The notes below the pieces were generated by a model. It was not told the DNA's origin, did not search any database, and was given only the letters and a program-made list of their open reading frames with translations. From positions 3,373 to 30,939 of the forward strand of contig NW_003131909.1 of assembly GCF_000003605.2 (NCBI RefSeq): 27,567 nucleotides of DNA. The letters run 5' to 3'. Below, piece after piece: positions 5,481-27,567 of the stretch; positions within the stretch are counted from its first letter, which is position 1, and every line of letters starts with the position of its first letter. The stretch comes from Saccoglossus kowalevskii (Eukaryota > Hemichordata > Enteropneusta > Harrimaniidae). A program made the translations under genes and the position numbers.

Positions 5481-5744
5481 TCATGACTCTTTGACACACA
5501 TGTCACAGAATTTCACGCAAGACGATGTGGCAGTGTGCCGATAGTCGTCCATATGAGATGTGGACACATGTACATTCCATTTAATCAATTTAGTATACAT
5601 CATTTTAGTATTCGAGCCAGGTACATATTGAATGTGTTCCTTTCTAAACCATTCAGGTGAAGCAATAGGCCTTCCAGTGCATATTGATGAAAACCACTGC
5701 TTGGACATTCCTGTTAGCCATACGTGTGTTGTCAGCATAATCAC
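5481..5744 (-). other. 87-codon minus-strand open frame next to the coding-like segment
   Basis: It encodes a moderately protein-like sequence with a W-F-S-S-I-C-T-G-R-P patch and a Cys-rich end (C-x3-C-x2-C near the C-terminus). It overlaps, in a different frame, the readthrough of the 5788-5981 segment, so at most one of the two can be genuine. No domain recognised. Confidence 0.15.
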
Positions 5745-5787
5745 GTAACTCGTTTAACAGGGAGAAGTTTTACCAAAGCGTATCAAA

Positions 5788-11663: not shown

Positions 11664-14202
11664 ATGAGTCGTCCACGTCCAGGGAAAACTAAGCTAGTGA
11701 GCTCACGAAGACGGAACCCGAAGAACAAAACAGACGAAGCTAAAACTGATCACATAGACAATGAAAATAATGTCGATACTCGTAGACTAAGCAATGAAAA
11801 CATCGTCGTCGTCACTGTCAGTGAAAATGGTGATATCAAAAATACTCAGAACGATCGTCCACGTCCAAGGAAAACTAAGCTAGTGAGCTCACGAAAACGG
11901 AACCCGAAGAACAAAACAGACGAAGCTAAAACTGATCACATAGACAATGAAAATAATGTCGATACTCGTAGACTAAGCAATGAAAACATCGTCGTCGTCA
12001 CTGTCAGTGAAAATGGCGATATCGAAAATACTCAGAACGATCGAAGTTATCTGAAGAACAGTGCCAGTTCTGGTAGTATACGGGAGAAAGATCCTGAGAA
12101 ACAACATGCAGAATTTTACGATCTGGATAATTCGCAGGTAAGTTGGTAAGAAATGAATGTAAGGTCACTTATTATGTAATTTAACGTGGTAGTACGCTGA
12201 GAAAAAGATACTATTTTCACCCTGATAATTCCTGCAAAGAGTATGACAAACAACCGCATGTCTACGTCTGAGTAGCTCAAGCATATACAACTCAATTTAG
12301 GAATGCCGTGCTTGCTATAAGGCTCTTCACATACCACGCATCCAAACGCTGATTCTAGGCGACTGCTGCTCTAGCAATACGTCTTTGGAAAATAATTTAA
12401 ATAAGGGATAAAACATATATTATTATAAAAAAATATATATATATACTAGTAGTCCTGACATGCAGATTGCCTTCATGCAATACCTTGTCTAAATATGATC
12501 ATGCTTAGACGTACTATATTGAGATGTCTAGTGGATGTGACTCCTTGCCGTCTAATTCGCATGATGTTTCCGAACTAAGCTCACAAAGATGACCTGTTGG
12601 CGTAATTTAATATGTCATATGTACACGTCTTAAAGTGTAGCGTATCTATATATTCCATCCAATGTTGTTGTCGCCTTAATTTTTCAAATGCCATTTTGTA
12701 ACCAGCAAAATTTCGGTGAAACATTTCGCAAAATATTATGTATTTTTTTAATAATCTCCGTGTTAATTTTGAACCGACTCAACATAATTTATCATTAGCT
12801 ACATATCTTAACACGTCCATTATTACATTTTTAAGACAAACGGAGGCGGATTTGTTTTCAGAAAGCCCGGATGTGGAAGTTGACTTTGGCTTTCAATTGA
12901 GAAGGAGATTTTATAAAATAGTGTAGTACTGTTGTCAAAGATGTATTATTAGTGTCGGGTATTTCACGCCGATCCGACCAAGTTACATTGTATTATGTTT
13001 GTACACGACAACAATCACTTTGGGTCACTAAGAGGACAATCATTCGAAAATTTATTTCATTTTTACTGTATATTTTATTTTGTATTATATTGACTGTTGC
13101 CATATACAGCTTTCGCGATGACCACAACTTTGAAATAAAAACTTCCAGCAACCAAATAATAATTGCTGAGAAGAGTAATTTGAATGCTCTAACTTGTTGA
13201 TCATTACATCAGACTTGTGATGTGTCTACGTCATTTCACCGAACACTGTCATGCCGACATGCACAACCGATTATAAATTATTGTATTTTGTCAGATTGCT
13301 GAACACGATTCAGTGAAGAGCTACAAGAGTAGCGTAGGGTACGATGGCGATCCATTGTGGATGTGTAAGCAATGTTGGTGGTGGTTGTGGTTTGTGGTTG
13401 GTGCACTCATTGGTGGTCTTATTATAGGAATAGCACTAGGTGTTATTCTAGGCATACCAGTTTCAGGTGAGTCGATCAAAATTAGAGGAACGAAGGTGCC
13501 TTATTTACACTACGATGTGTCTTCGCATTACTTGTAAACACACAATGTGTTTCGCTTGTATATGCTGCATGGGACTCATAACAAACACATAATGCACAGT
13601 GCCACGATTGCGCATGCGTTGTCTAATTATTGTCGTGTGTGCCAGTGGTTTACTCTGACAATCACATGAATATGGCGCATTTCTTATACGTTTTCCGTGT
13701 GTTGGGCATTGTTTGTGTTTTGAACTGCCCTTCAATGACAATATTATCTGTAAGACGTTTTACCACGTACCTGATTCGTTAGTACCTGGCAATGGTCTAT
13801 GCTTAGAAAATACAATATAAATGTTTTCTAGTGTCTTTGGTTTTGCACAGGAACTGTGATTTTTGTTTGTTTGTTTTTGTCCATGACTTTGTAATCTTTA
13901 TTATTTGTTACATAGCAACAAATGACGACAAAACAGATTGCATAGATGAGCTGACAGCGTGCATTGAAGGTAGAAATACATATGCGGGGACGTACGGTGG
14001 TCTGAATCCAACGGGAGCCGGATGTAAAAACTACTTAGACGGTTGTTACATTGACGGGATGTCGGTCATATGCCAAAAGCCAGGAAGTTTACATTTTAAA
14101 ACTACCGTGAGCGGGGCCTCTAGTGACTGTGAGAGAGATTCCACTAACACCACAATAACATGCGGAGTCACGATGAAAATGATAACATATTGTTACAATT
14201 AA
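11664..14202 (+). CDS. Gene 1: type II single-pass membrane protein with Cys-rich ectodomain (3 exons, 310 aa, unknown family)
   Basis: Exons are 11664-12137, 13295-13466 and 13916-14202, with introns GTAAGT..TCAG (phase 0) and GTGAGT..ATAG (phase 1). The joined frame is 933 nt. The ATG has A at -3. Residues 3-126 are two 62-residue near-identical repeats, each beginning with a basic motif K-x-K-L-V-S-S-R-x-R-N-P-K; residues 127-185 are polar and end in a C-x-x-C patch. A tryptophan-led hydrophobic helix spans about 186-212, with glycines at 194, 198, 203, 207 and 211. Residues 216-310 are a Cys-rich domain (Cys 224, 231, 252, 259, 268, 287, 298, 308) with one sequon at N293. There is no N-terminal signal peptide, so N-in/C-out (type II) is inferred. 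Its downstream neighbour (16515-18126) is a paralogue with the same exon plan. An ATTAAA at 14212 is a possible polyadenylation signal. I do not recognise the family; function is unknown. Exon structure is confident because both phases and the paralogue agree. Confidence 0.82.
11670..12041 (+). repeat. Two tandem 186-bp coding repeats in exon 1 of gene 1
   Basis: Units 11670-11855 and 11856-12041 are in frame and differ at only four positions that I can see. Three differences change the residue (G/R, R/K, K/E) and one is silent. Each unit encodes 62 residues: the basic R-P-R-P-x-K-T-K-L-V-S-S-R motif followed by an acidic/polar stretch. The paralogue at 16515 has a single equivalent module, so the duplication is specific to gene 1 and recent. 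Confidence 0.95.
12138..13294 (+). other. Intron 1 of gene 1 (phase 0)
   Basis: This 1157-nt intron begins GTAAGT directly after a CAG exon end and ends TTGTATTTTGTCAG. It contains an AT-rich run with a short (TA)n tract near 12427-12445 and a chance open frame at 12952-13197 with one hydrophobic stretch. I see no exon in it with matching splice sites, although a cassette exon cannot be excluded by eye. Confidence 0.75.
13467..13915 (+). other. Intron 2 of gene 1 (phase 1)
   Basis: The 449-nt intron begins GTGAGT and ends TTATTTGTTACATAG. A second acceptor-like TTTGCACAG lies at 13842-13850. Using it would meet a stop in the required frame, so the downstream ATAG site, which also matches the paralogue's exon boundary, is preferred. 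Confidence 0.75.
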
Positions 14203-16330
14203 CAAGGAATGATTAAATAATATAATTATATTTACAATGCGTCACTATGGTAGCTACTTAAAACGTACCTGGCGGCAAATAAGATATCCGAGATATTCCG
14301 TTCAAATGTGACTACCAAGCGGGGTCGCCGTGGGGTTCATGCCCAAATATAAGTGGAATAGGTACACTGAACTATGTCACGAATATTTGTATATATTAGT
14401 CGTTTATATTTAATGACTCTTAATTCACTGACATCATCACACTATACAAAAAACTATAACTATCCAATCAGCTCATTATAATATTATAGCACAATACGCA
14501 TATTATGCATGACCTCAAAATGTCACACATCCTGATATTTATGTGGGTAAATATTCTATCAATTAGACATTTGTCAATTATTATTTTTCTAAGAATGTAG
14601 TTGGTTTACCCCTGGAGTTCATCCAAACCAGTTAAACATGACTAATGGCTGGTATAACATTGTATATTATTTACTGCTACTCTAGATAGAAAGTTCCCGG
14701 ATGTATGAATGTTAGGGGTTATATGCGAATCCTATTAGCTCTTATTTGTATTAGCACTTCCCAGCAGCATATTTATTTCAATTATGGTAATTAAACAGAA
14801 AACTTTTGAATATATATTCGGGGAGGGACCTTTTATGTTGTGTGTATCGTCTTGGTCGTGGTGGGATGGCGCCCAAACCAATACATATATCAGTTCCAAA
14901 TCATTGAAATAAAATTTGATTCTTATTCTATCCTATCAGTCCATTTTACCGTTCATCCTTACTTACTTCAATAATTATTTTAACCTTTTCTCGATTACGC
15001 ACACAAAGTTCCGAGTTTCAGTGTCACGACATCTCATCCGTCATTTTGTTCAACCAAATCTTAGCTGTAAAAAATCACACTGGTACAAAATGTATTTAGA
15101 TACGACAAGTTCAGTTTGATTTGAAGTACCGAAAATTCATATAAAATCTTGGTTTTGTCCAAATGTGGGCACACACGAGCAGGTAATCGTCGTTAACTAA
15201 TTTCAAACGAGCATACAAGTTGTTTTTGTAATCAACCATAATTCCCATTGTCACTAAATGGCATATTGAACGCAGCCGGAAGATGACATTACATTTCTAC
15301 CAAGTTATACTTTTTATTTTTCCTCTACATTGTTCGTGTAATCTTAATTCGATATGTGTTTTGTGGAGCATAGATTATTTTGTTTAATACGTGTTTTGGG
15401 ATCGCCATATACATATACGAAGAAAGTTTTCGAAATTTGATTGAAAAACAATGTATTTTATGCGCCGTGTATACATCGCATTCGTTCAAGACCGACCACG
15501 GCATTGAGCCACGACCGTTGTTCTTCAAATAACACCAGCATGATAAAATAAAATATGTGTTCTTCACAGTGAAGTTTGTGTGGTTTATCTTGAAATATGT
15601 AATTACGAAAAAACCAAATGGAGTCAGGTACACACTGTCGAACAAATCCACATTTGACATTCAACATGTATATTTTTATTTATAACTATTCTCGTTGTGT
15701 CCTTTAACAGCTGACCTACAGTGGCATGGGTTCTTGGCTGTGTGTACGTAATAACATAAATGTTGTTGCCGCTAAGAATAATACATTGTCATTGAGTTTG
15801 TTCATCTGACAAACTAACAATAGGCTCTTTGTTACCCACAGACGTCGGCGTATCAACGTCTGACAGAAACGGCGTGCCTTGGTATGCTTGATTGAAGTGC
15901 GTGATATCTGTACGTCAGCATTAACAATGCTGCGTTTTTGGACCCAGGTGTTGGCTAGCTCTGAGATCAAACAAGGATTACACATTCCAACAGAAAGGCA
16001 CATTAATATACGCGACAGTAGTTTAAATAGTCCGTCAATATATATTGATTTTTTTTGTCTGTCTATTCTCATCGAATAATCGCGTGTTATGTATAGCCAC
16101 ACCCAAAGCAGGTCGGGTTTTGGCTTTATTAATATAATGGAAATAGTTACGATTTATATAAGTGATTCATCCAACTTGTTGTTAAAAGATCACTAAGTTA
16201 TACACAAATTTAAAATTCACATGTTTAGTGAATTCTATTGCTCAATAATTTATTGGTTGCTGAGACGATGGCTGATTGAATTCGAACTCTCTTGCGAAGG
16301 TCGACAACAAAATATTGTGGACACATCGGT
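14203..16330. other. Intergenic region between the two paralogues
   Basis: About 2.1 kb of AT-rich sequence. ATTAAA at 14212 and AATAAA at 14908 are possible 3' ends for gene 1. Minus-strand open frames of 111, 69 and 128 codons (15325-15667 and 15716-16102) overlap one another in different frames and show no recognisable domain. I see no third copy of the paralogous gene here and no RNA gene. Confidence 0.5.
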
Positions 16331-16335
16331 GATTG

Positions 16336-16348
16336 GTTGCCTGGCAAC
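16336..16348 (+). promoter_or_regulatory. X-box-like RFX site upstream of gene 2
   Basis: GTTGCCTGGCAAC is a perfect inverted repeat with a one-base spacer and matches the RFX X-box layout (RYYNYY-N1-3-RRNRAC). It lies 167 bp upstream of the gene 2 ATG, next to an ATTGG (inverted CCAAT box) at 16332-16336. Binding is inferred from sequence only. Confidence 0.6.
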
Positions 16349-16426
16349 GTTAATCTTCACAGCTAGCTGGCGTATAATTGATGACGAGACACTGCTACTA
16401 ATGTACGATCTATCGAGGTAGTTTTT

Positions 16427-16440
16427 ATTGCTATGGTAAC
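16427..16440 (+). promoter_or_regulatory. Second X-box-like RFX site upstream of gene 2
   Basis: ATTGCTATGGTAAC fits the X-box pattern with one weaker position in the left half. It sits 75 bp upstream of the gene 2 ATG and about 90 bp from the first X-box. A weak TATA-like CATAAAAAGC follows at 16481-16490. Confidence 0.5.
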
Positions 16441-16514
16441 CCTGTTTACAAGCATAATATACTGTACAATGATTTGATCACATAAAAAGCCTTTAATCGA
16501 CCGCAGCCCGTATA

Positions 16515-17745
16515 ATGAGTAGTACAGGCAAAGTTAAGCTAACCAGCTCGCGTAAGCGAAATCCGAAGAAGAATCAAGTTGAAGATGCGGATTCAGCCGT
16601 TGAACTTGGCGATATCGGCGTCGATGAACAGTCACGCCATACCGTCACAAATGGCAATGTAAAGCAACGAGAGTACGGAGATGATAAAGACGACATACAA
16701 CCGACACCTGATGACAATAACAAAACGAAGACGTTTGACGACGAATCGTTGCGTGACGAGAAAGACGATCGCCGATCAATAGGCGGTGAAAATGACGAAG
16801 CACAAAAACGGGATGGTGAATATGATGATGACCGCTTATATGGTACAAACAGTAAAGATAAAATTGACGAAAATTACCAGGTAAACCAATTAATTAATTA
16901 AACTAAACCAATTTTGAGTTTGAGCGTGTTATACTACTACATCATGGTACTTAATACTGTGGAGGGACCATGATTCTAACAGCTTGCAGAGAGAATTGAA
17001 AATAGTGATCTAATCATAAGTACTGGATTTATCTAGCAGCCATAATATTGATTTTTATTGGCATTCTTCCTAGTTATGGCGCTACGTGGTCCAAAAATGT
17101 GAACATAATTTTTCCGACTTTGGGGAAATTTAATGCAGATATTTTGGTAGGGTTGTTTATCGAAGAGCGAATGTCTGCAGTGAAGCGAAGTATCAGTAGA
17201 GAATCAACTATATGACGACAATGTGTGTAAGAGGGGTGGTACCATTCGCCAACACAAAACACATAAAATCCATTCATCATAGGTGTATCGACATTGAAAT
17301 AAAATATTCCCTTGAATAAAATGGAAAAAAAATCTCCTTTGATAGAAATAACTGATTAATTACGTCAATTAATCATTTATAAATATATTTACCTCTATGG
17401 CAACCAACATTAACAAAGACCATTGTCGGTATATTGTAAATAGTCAACTACATATTAGAATATTGTTCATTAGTTACAGGAAAAGTCATTACCAACTACT
17501 ATTTACAATTTGTAACCTGTAGATAAAGGCAAAGAACACAAACTCTAACGACGGCTCCGATAGTCTATGTAGCCTGGCATGTAAACGGAACTGGTGGTGC
17601 TGGCCATTCTGTCTGGGTATAGTGATCGGTGCCGTCGTGATAGGAATATTTATAGGTATCATACTTAGTGGCCAGCTTAGAAGTAAGTGTTGTGCATTAT
17701 AATTTATAGCCTTGCCGTGTTCGATTGATTGATTGATTTATTAAC

Positions 17746-17804
<59 letters not shown>

Positions 17805-18126
17805 CGGGCATTTGCTTATATTTATTTCCACAGTTGTTTCAGATGAATACACCTATTGTAGCATTGAACTAGACATATGTACAGACGACGTGGCTTCTTA
17901 CTGTGCACAGTATGGTTCCCTCAACGGCTATGCATGTGGGAGTGGTTGCACTCACTACGTGAACAACTGTAGAGTACATGACAACACTGTTAGTTGCAAC
18001 AATTTCTACATGGTGACCTACCCTCACCCCAACTCTACTGAGGAATGTGAGAAGAATTATTCAAATAACAAAACCGATGTCGATATTCAATGTGGTTCGG
18101 ACGTAAGCATGGATCCCGTCTGTTGA
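16515..18126 (+). CDS. Gene 2: type II single-pass membrane protein with Cys-rich ectodomain (3 exons, 272 aa, paralogue of gene 1)
   Basis: Exons are 16515-16880, 17523-17682 and 17834-18126, with introns GTAAAC..TGTAG (phase 0) and GTAAGT..CACAG (phase 1). The joined frame is 819 nt. The ATG has A at -3. Residues 6-19 hold K-V-K-L-T-S-S-R-K-R-N-P-K-K, the same motif as gene 1. Residues 20-122 are strongly charged (D, E, K, R) and look disordered. A C-x3-C patch with W-W-C-W leads into a hydrophobic helix at about 146-170, with glycines at 154, 158, 163 and 167. The ectodomain 176-272 has ten cysteines (184, 191, 199, 210, 214, 221, 230, 247, 262, 272); eight match gene 1 in order, and C-x6-C, C-x6-C, C-x8-C and C-x9-C spacings are identical. 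Sequons are at N242, N250 and N254. Type II orientation is inferred. ATTAAA at 18162 may be the polyadenylation signal. Family and function are unknown. Confidence 0.84.
16881..17522 (+). other. Intron 1 of gene 2 (phase 0)
   Basis: The 642-nt intron runs from GTAAAC to CTGTAG. It contains a weaker X-box-like half site (CTATGGCAAC near 17395-17404). A minus-strand open frame at 17074-17280 has no recognisable content. I see no extra exon. Confidence 0.75.
17723..17804 (+). repeat. (GATT)n microsatellite in intron 2 of gene 2
   Basis: About twenty GATT units with one interruption (around 17738-17746) fill more than half of the 151-nt intron 17683-17833. The array ends about 29 nt before the exon 3 acceptor, so it occupies the usual branch-point neighbourhood. 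Confidence 0.95.
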
Positions 18127-19146
18127 CTTGAGTTAGGGTTGTGTTATTCAGTCTACAATGTATTAAACAATTCCTGAACCTGAACTGCAAAAAAATATTT
18201 CACATCGCCGAGCCGAAAGAAGCAGATAACTGCAAATCCAATTAGTGCGCAACAAAATAGCAACACATTTCGTGTCAGTACATTGTATTTTATGCTTTTC
18301 GATGATATCTGGATGTCACAAACATTATTTATATATATATATATTGCGAATTGAAAATGTTTCCGATAACCAATTGCGAGAATCTGACCGGTGGTGGCGT
18401 GCTCTCTGTAATTTGAAGCAATGAGTCGCATCCAGTGGAATTGGTGGAATTTCCTGGAGTGATCTGTATTTTTCAAACAGTTGTGGACGTTGGGGGTAAA
18501 GTGCGAACACATACTGGGATGAATTTGCTCCAGAATATGTTTTTGTTAATTGGTGTATTCATGGTGTACTTATTCATTCATTTACTTGACATCATGCAGA
18601 GTATACTTAGTATATGCATAATATAACAGTCTTTCATCATAAACACATTGTGTTAATGCTTCCATATAAAACATTTACACGAATATAAAAGTAACCAAAG
18701 CATAGTCATATGTATTGTATATTGTTGATGCTATTATTGGTAATGCTAAAAAGATATACAACGTCAGCAAATGTACCGTATACAACGATCGAATGGAGAT
18801 ACGTGAATGAAACACACATAAGAATTCGACAACACGTATTAGAAACACCGCGGGGAAGTATTTAAACATATAGCGGTACACGCAGAGTTTTGATCAGAGC
18901 CGAGTAAATTACACGTTGGCACTAGCCCGAATGTAATTTATGAGACCCTAATCAGAATTTGGGTTTTATATCTATAAACCCACACTTTCCAGTGATTGTT
19001 TCGGACTTACTGGTACATCACAATAACACGATAAAATTGAAAGATTCAGAAATCCGCATTTTCAGCGCTGAATGTATATTATTGTACGTTATGTCATCTG
19101 CTCATGATAATTCAATGGATACCTCTTGACATTGAAATTACCCTTC

Positions 19147-24372: not shown

Positions 24373-24377
24373 GTTAG

Positions 24378-24449
24378 TTCCCTAGCCGGGAATCGAACCC
24401 GGGCCCTGTGGGTGAAAGCCACATATCCTAACCACTAGACCACTAGGGA
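24378..24449 (-). tRNA. tRNA-Glu (anticodon TTC), copy 1
   Basis: The 72-nt gene folds as a full cloverleaf: acceptor TCCCTAG/CTAGGGA, D arm with A box TGGTCTAGTGG, anticodon stem TGTGG/CCACA around loop CTTTCAC, and T arm CCGGG/CCCGG with B box GGTTCGATTCC. Anticodon TTC is at 24414-24416 and reads GAA. There is no intron and CCA is not encoded. Confidence 0.97.
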
Positions 24450-25489: not shown

Positions 25490-25493
25490 TTAG

Positions 25494-25565
25494 TTCCCTA
25501 GCCGGGAATCGAACCCGGGCCCTGTGGGTGAAAGCCACATATCCTAACCACTAGACCACTAGGGA
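25494..25565 (-). tRNA. tRNA-Glu (anticodon TTC), copy 2
   Basis: All 72 nt are identical to the copy at 24378-24449, with the same cloverleaf, A and B boxes and anticodon TTC. Identity within the gene against diverged flanks points to selection or gene conversion. Confidence 0.97.
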
Positions 25566-25777
25566 GCACATATTATTCATTCGAATCGCCTAGCAACATG
25601 CTGTTATTGCAATATTGTAACCTGGTTTCCGACGTATTAAACGTGAGTAATTACATAATCTAAACCAGATTTTCAACACTGATTTAGACTTTTGCATTAC
25701 AAATACTGAATACGTCATATCAAGCGATCTGTCTTTAATAGTTAACACATTCATGTTAATGGGAATACCAGCAATGG

Positions 25778-25803
25778 CACATAACCTAACCACTAGACCA
25801 CTA
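25778..25803 (-). pseudogene. Truncated tRNA-Glu fragment (5' part only)
   Basis: On the minus strand this matches the 5' part of the two tRNA-Glu genes, from about base 5 of the acceptor stem through the D arm and A box into the 5' side of the anticodon stem, with one base change. It then breaks into the end of duplicated segment copy 2. It has no anticodon and no B box. Confidence 0.75.
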
Positions 25804-27447
25804 TCGATGACTTATAAATTATGCTAACCTCAATCGTAAACCAATAATTCATAAATGTAGTAAACAGTGAGCTTGTTTGCTTCCACATACATATATAGTA
25901 GTGTAATTATTCAAGACGATGACATGTACACTCAATAGGATTATACTTTGGCAATAAAATTGCTCTTGTTGAATCAATCAACCTCTTTAATAAAAACAAA
26001 TAAATCAATCGCTGGTGATTTTGCTTCCGTTAGCGGCGTTCTTAATTTGCAAAAATAGTTTAGATCGTACATCTTATGTTTTCCCTTATATTTGGGAAAA
26101 CGGGTATCTTCTCGGGAGAGGTGTATTCGTTTTTGATGAATTCATCCATTTAGTAAAAACAATGTCTTCACTTTAGTAATCAAGTGCATGGATAAATTAC
26201 AGTCCATCAACAACATGTTGGAAGTGGAGAAATCCATTGAAATTTGAGTGCAAACCTTGTATAAACGTGTGATTGTCACCCTGCTAACAGTATATTTCTT
26301 TGTAATTTGCCATTTGAATTTGAACAATTCAGCGACAAGAATAACAAGAATCCGGAATAACAATTACAAAATGTCAAGTTCGTGTCACGTGATGCAAATC
26401 AACTCGACAGTTCAGTGTCCCCGCTCAACGAAAATTAGAAACTTATTGTAAACCCCTTTGAAAAAGATTTTTGCCATCACTGCCGATGTATTGGTCGTAA
26501 TTTTCTAAAACCTAGTACATTTACACAACCAGGCCAAGTACCAAGCTAATGAAATTAGCGACGCGGTACGCCATTTTGTTCAACTTTGCAAGATAAAAAT
26601 GATAGCATTTGTAGAACAATTCAATCAGTTTAGTCGTTCTGATCAATGTCCATGGCCGCTATTGCAATACCTATACTGGCGATAAGACAACAATGAGAGA
26701 TTGTACAACTTAAAAAACGTGATAAACCCTCGTACTCAATCACTGTCTGAAAGTCTGCCCTTGGTATTATTGTCCGTTCATTGACCATCGCAAATTAAAT
26801 CAGATTAAAACCTGTCTATGATTTTCAGTGTTTGCACAGATTGCAATTATTGGACAACTGTCGTATGCTCTCAATTATAAAATACTGTAAACGCTTTAGT
26901 TATTATTCGCTTATAATTGATCTAAATGCGTGTGAAACTTTCAGCAGAACTCATTGTTTCAATGTAAATTTAAGACCCGTAAATTTGGCTCAAAATATCG
27001 AACTTATGATTTTAAATAACGAAAAGTAATAAGTTCACAAGATAGCGACACACAGGTCAAATGATAGGACATACTGAAAAACTATCGGATACTAGTATAT
27101 AATGTATGATATCATACTGGAGGGTCTATGATAATATCCAATGTTTTATATGGAAAGCCGTACGGGACCCTGCTGCGCCGATATAAATTGCATGGTAAAA
27201 CATATAGCTTCAAAATTATGCTGCTTCTTCAACAAAAGTGCGATTTCCGATGTCTACGTTTACCAATTGTAGTAGTAGCAATCAGCACAAAACTTATTCA
27301 CAGTCGTCGCTAATTAATTAGTAGTTGTCGCAAAGCGAGTTGTAGTAGTCGCGATTTAACGGGTGATGATTTGTAGAAGTCACTAACACACTACAGCGTA
27401 TTTGTCGCTGACGCAGTTCCTTAATTTATAGACGACGACACTTCATT
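25804..27447. other. Non-coding stretch
   Basis: AT-rich; small open frames at 26142-27313 show no domain. From about 27299 GTCG-containing strings become frequent and lead into the tandem repeat at the window's end. Confidence 0.4.
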
Positions 27448-27567
27448 TTCCAAGTTGTCGAAGCAAACAAGTCCCCCTAGTAGACGACGCAACTTGCACT
27501 TTTCAAGTTGTCGACGCAAAACGAGTCCCCCTAGTAGACTTTGCATTTTTCATCCAAGTGACGCAGA
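27448..27567. repeat. GTCG-rich ~53-bp tandem repeat, cut by the window end
   Basis: CAAGTTGTCGAAGCAAACAAG at 27451 and CAAGTTGTCGACGCAAAACGAG at 27504 are each followed by GTCCCCCTAGTAGAC (27471-27485 and 27525-27539). A third start, ATCCAAGTGACGC, is at about 27551. Related GTCG motifs precede it from 27299. Confidence 0.8.

Follow-up and report, generated by a model that had tools for sequence, protein, structure and literature searches.

Within the analyzed stretch of 27,567 nucleotides (in the following referred to as the window), two neighboring genes on the same strand look like an orphan membrane-protein pair, ordinary in kind and real in substance. As judged from their sequences, they are old tandem paralogues which have been conserved as protein. 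That the gene pair is real is, in our own judgement, nearly certain. Both products are proposed to be single-pass type II membrane glycoproteins with the N-terminus inside and the C-terminus outside.

Gene structure and relationship of the two copies

Translation of the proposed exons (Table 1) yields open frames of 310 aa for gene 1 and 272 aa for gene 2, and all four introns exhibit GT-AG borders. The intron phases, 0 and then 1, are common to both genes, and the exon junctions fall on matching aligned residues (Q158/I159 vs. Q122/I123 and 215/216 vs. 175/176). The tandem pair with shared architecture and intron phases, which an earlier note on this DNA had described from the letters, is thereby confirmed. 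The sequence ATTAAA is found 3′ of each stop codon, at 14212 in gene 1 and at 18162 in gene 2. Intron 2 of gene 2 harbors a GATT microsatellite of 20.5 units (17723-17804).

Table 1. Coordinates and content of the exons of both genes and of the duplication within gene 1.
Feature	Position	Strand	Content
Gene 1 exon 1	11664..12137	+	Presumed cytosolic tail, residues 1-158; KL-x-SSR-x-RNP block, twice
Gene 1 exon 2	13295..13466	+	Two juxtamembrane cysteines, W-rich start, glycine-rich transmembrane helix
Gene 1 exon 3	13916..14202	+	Ectodomain with eight cysteines; stop TAA
Gene 2 exon 1	16515..16880	+	Presumed cytosolic tail, residues 1-122; KL-x-SSR-x-RNP block, once, then acidic stretch
Gene 2 exon 2	17523..17682	+	Cysteines before and at helix start; glycine-rich transmembrane helix
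Gene 2 exon 3	17834..18126	+	Ectodomain with the eight cysteines of gene 1 and two more; stop TGA
In-frame tandem duplication, 186 bp (62 aa)	11669..12040	+	Inside gene 1 exon 1; copies 11669-11854 and 11855-12040

A blastn comparison of the gene 1 region with the gene 2 region gave E-values below 0.1 inside exon 1 only. In tblastn searches against the window, gene 1 exon 2 was matched by gene 2 exon 2 at 2e-6 (reverse query only 0.18), and the N-terminal parts matched each other (E = 8e-4 and 0.003). Neither ectodomain query retrieved the other in these searches up to an E-value of 10, so that the case for the ectodomains rests on their pairwise comparison and on shuffles. A two-sequence BLASTP aligned them with an E-value of 5e-9 (35.8 bits, 26/96 residues identical). 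Their alignment score of 104 was reached by none of 5000 shuffles in which the cysteines of gene 2 were kept in position (mean 25.4, sd 8.5), and likewise by none of 5000 shuffles of all residues (mean 21.1, sd 7.1). The best-kept part of both proteins is formed by the N-terminal 20 residues, where 13 of 18 aligned residues are identical, as compared to 25 of 103 over the remainder of exon 1, 19 of 53 in exon 2 and 27 of 91 in the ectodomain.

Over 90 aligned ectodomain codons, identity amounts to 47, 53, and 21% at codon positions 1, 2, and 3, as compared to a chance agreement from composition of 29, 27, and 26%, the underlying amino-acid alignment somewhat favoring positions 1 and 2. As third positions are at chance while first and second positions are above it, these values point to an old duplication kept as protein, in agreement with the earlier claim that both copies are under constraint at the protein level. 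A third copy was not seen within the window by tblastn and profile searches. Outside of the two genes, the best E-values of profile matches were 1 with the ectodomain, 2.4 with the N-terminal block and 0.039 with the hydrophobic exon.

Besides the two genes, the window includes 77 open frames with a length of 58 aa or more, 20 of which were covered by the Pfam scan. One open frame (5484-5753, minus strand) matched the STAG domain below threshold (E = 1e-4; 22.6 bits against a cut-off of 25) and had no match among PDB sequences up to an E-value of 1; it is perhaps a gene fragment. Two tRNA-Glu (TTC) genes on the minus strand (24377-24449 and 25493-25565) are located within a tandem duplication of ~1.1 kb, the blocks of which are 79-98% identical and of which there is also a partial 55-base copy (25773-25827, 76%). 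A 54-bp tandem repeat of about two copies spans 27429-27539. The ratio of observed to expected CpG is 0.99 over positions 1-27567, and CpG depletion was not seen.

Membrane topology, cysteine framework and search for relatives

Each protein contains one hydrophobic helix, which is located far from the N-terminus, and the N-terminus itself reads as hydrophilic in both. The best three 19-residue hydropathy windows start at residues 191, 192, and 196 in gene 1 and at 151-153 in gene 2. Small-x3-small glycine runs are present in the helix of gene 1 (194-198 and 199-203-207-211) and of gene 2 (154-158 and 163-167). The net charge of the 15 flanking residues is -1 and 0 on the N side and -4 and -1 on the C side (genes 1 and 2, respectively); the C side is thus more acidic, which is the expected direction but a weak signal, and the N side carries no net positive charge. 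Of the type II layout assigned earlier, the single helix distant from the N-terminus stands, while its orientation is weakly indicated by the flank charge. N-glycosylation sequons occur in the ectodomains, at residue 293 in gene 1 and at 242, 250, and 254 in gene 2, and also in the presumed cytosolic tails (21 and 83 in gene 1, 69 in gene 2).

An ectodomain of eight cysteines had been described for the pair. This applies to gene 1 and to the eight shared positions, but gene 2 contains ten, its extra pair being located within the x22 gap. The shared E-L after Cys1, the Y-G-x-L-N stretch and G-C-x2-Y are all present as described. Even cysteine numbers would suit an oxidized domain with every cysteine paired. 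Only ~12 residues separate the helix from the first ectodomain cysteine, and tryptophan is absent from both ectodomains. The cysteine spacing pattern has two occurrences in the window, as compared to zero in 100 order-1 Markov samplings, a count which constitutes a post hoc test, as the pattern was read off these two genes themselves. Structure predictions from two two-row alignments reached a pLDDT of 36.3 and 36.9 with every residue below 50, and therefore no fold is claimed. The helices which both models place on the first two cysteines, and the strands which they draw further on, are no evidence at a pLDDT of 36-37.

In HMM profile searches with both proteins no Pfam family scored above its cut-off, which is in line with the impression of the earlier note that no named domain fits. 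The ectodomain also had no match in NCBIfam and none among PDB sequences up to an E-value of 10. Among the Pfam matches listed to E 10, a range in which the HMMER filters discard most matches above 0.1, only Paramecium_SA covered the ectodomain (E = 8.6, gene 1 only), and PHROGs yielded the functionally uncharacterized phage family phrog_38226 (E = 0.022, gene 1 only); both are taken as chance. The same applies to matches over the helix (DUF5957, 0.024, and DUF3561, 0.082, in Pfam; DUF3561, 0.022, in NCBIfam; the holin phrog_689, 0.16) and over the tail (PML_CC, 0.69, and PA_Ig-like, 1.1, in Pfam), with all weak Pfam and NCBIfam matches being below the curated cut-offs. Three scans of viral contigs and two of genome contigs, neither collection being animal, gave 2, 2, 39, 40, and 28 stretches matching a pattern, none of which was confirmed at E-values up to 1e-3. 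Phages and plasmids gave no match to window bases 1-25000 (megablast) or to the gene 2 ectodomain (tblastn). In the literature, the family was not described among the matches listed by title, and peptide strings from the proteins were unmatched. The label of an unrecognized family is consequently a provisional one, its scope being Pfam, NCBIfam, PDB sequences, PHROGs and non-animal (bacterial and viral) contigs. Short cysteine-rich domains which have diverged are poorly caught by HMMER, and the family may already bear a name that is absent from these resources.

Conserved tail block and a working model

The best-conserved part of the presumed cytosolic tails is a block, KL-x-SSR-[RK]-RNP, in which serines adjoin the R-x-R and which is located ~105-170 residues from the helix. 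R-[RK]-R at this block is the sole R-x-R of gene 2. Gene 1 has it in each of its two block copies and contains three further R-x-R at residues 3, 65, and 67. The two 186-bp copies in gene 1, by which the block is doubled, exhibit four differences, three of them amino-acid changing, and the duplication is young-looking.

Because the R-x-R block is conserved with its adjacent serines, and because the helix contains glycine runs, an assembly-gated surface display is proposed for these putative type II glycoproteins. The helix would be a signal anchor which self-associates via its glycines, and the juxtamembrane cysteines may carry acyl groups. The last exon would fold as a four-disulfide module (five in gene 2), which might bind a ligand at the cell surface. 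KL-x-SSR-[RK]-RNP could represent an arginine-type ER-sorting signal that is masked by assembly or phosphorylation in a manner resembling the invariant chain, and the surface would then be reached by assembled complexes only, perhaps including mixed ones of gene 1 and gene 2 products. This mechanism as a whole, which is built by analogy, is plausible yet tentative.

The MHC class II invariant chain p35 (CD74) is among the closest known systems. According to the passages of PMC8362237 considered, the type II protein Iip35 contains a cytosolic R-x-R and a serine, the phosphorylation of which recruits 14-3-3, with beta-COP being also involved, and its transmembrane domain contributes to trimerization to a debated extent. 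It thus shares with the model a cytosolic R-x-R, a phosphorylatable serine and a single helix active in trimerization. Unlike in CD74, the blocks of genes 1 and 2 are far from the membrane, there is no shared family in Pfam, and the likeness was drawn without direct sequence comparison; the resemblance is in how the proteins may work and not one of membership. N-terminal arginine motifs are further described, in the part of PMC2799409 considered, to retain type II proteins such as glucosidase I in the ER. The same part holds a counter-example, a tail with R-x-R which reached the Golgi and which shows that the position of the motif matters. The R-x-R could also be fortuitous in a basic tail.

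Alternative readings and significance

It appears quite possible, if rather doubtful, that the ectodomain belongs to a known cysteine-rich fold, e.g., peritrophin-A/CBM14, C-type lectin-like, LU or SRCR, and has diverged too far in sequence to score, as short cysteine-rich domains are poorly caught by HMMER and PDB sequence searches. By eye, G-x-Y...C-x2-Y-x3-C resembles the CBM14 motif, with six central cysteines in roughly similar order and with the G-x-Y and C-x2-Y positions. The six cysteines of CBM14 are separated by gaps of 13-20, 5-6, 9-19, 10-14, and 4-14 residues. The ectodomains instead show 20-22, 6, 8, 16-18, and 10-14, of which 20-22, 8, and 16-18 are partly or wholly outside these ranges, and they have two further cysteines. 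A comparison by hhalign gave CBM14 a probability of 0.19%, and 127 of 200 cysteine-fixed shuffles were equally good, although this test is weak, having no positive control and a small profile of seven rows (six stretches and one typed consensus), five of them without the first cysteine. Type II C-type lectin-like receptors share the type II layout and a C-terminal disulfide-rich domain of ~100 aa. The C-type lectin fold is, however, rich in W, which the ectodomains lack, and Lectin_C was not among the Pfam matches listed to E 10. Against known folds more generally stand the Pfam and PDB results given above; the folds compared individually were CBM14 and the C-type lectin.

Two functional readings seem improbable to us. 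Tethered ligands are often type II proteins with a compact C-terminal disulfide module, and a precursor of this layout might be cut near the membrane and shed as a soluble cysteine-rich factor; the short stretch between helix and Cys1, however, leaves little room, and the protease sites sought there (R-x-x-R, KR, RR) are all absent from both proteins. Allorecognition or immune surface proteins retained as a diverging tandem pair would be in line with the low ectodomain identity of these paralogues (26 of 90 aligned), the extra cysteine pair of gene 2 and the tail duplication of gene 1, but the window contains two copies only. Pseudogenes or chance open frames, for which the failure of the ectodomains to find each other by tblastn might speak, are very improbable, as six of six exons are open, their boundaries agree, and codon positions 1 and 2 are kept with position 3 at chance.

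The reading preferred here is a constrained pair of putative type II membrane proteins. Its strongest version, a new extracellular eight-cysteine module of one animal lineage, carried by tandem type II proteins which exit the ER only when assembled, is unlikely to hold in full, albeit conceivable. If relatives exist under another name, the result would be routine annotation. If the domain is without known relatives, it would add an extracellular cysteine-rich module and a small family of membrane proteins, and the conserved tail block offers a trafficking hypothesis which is open to direct test.
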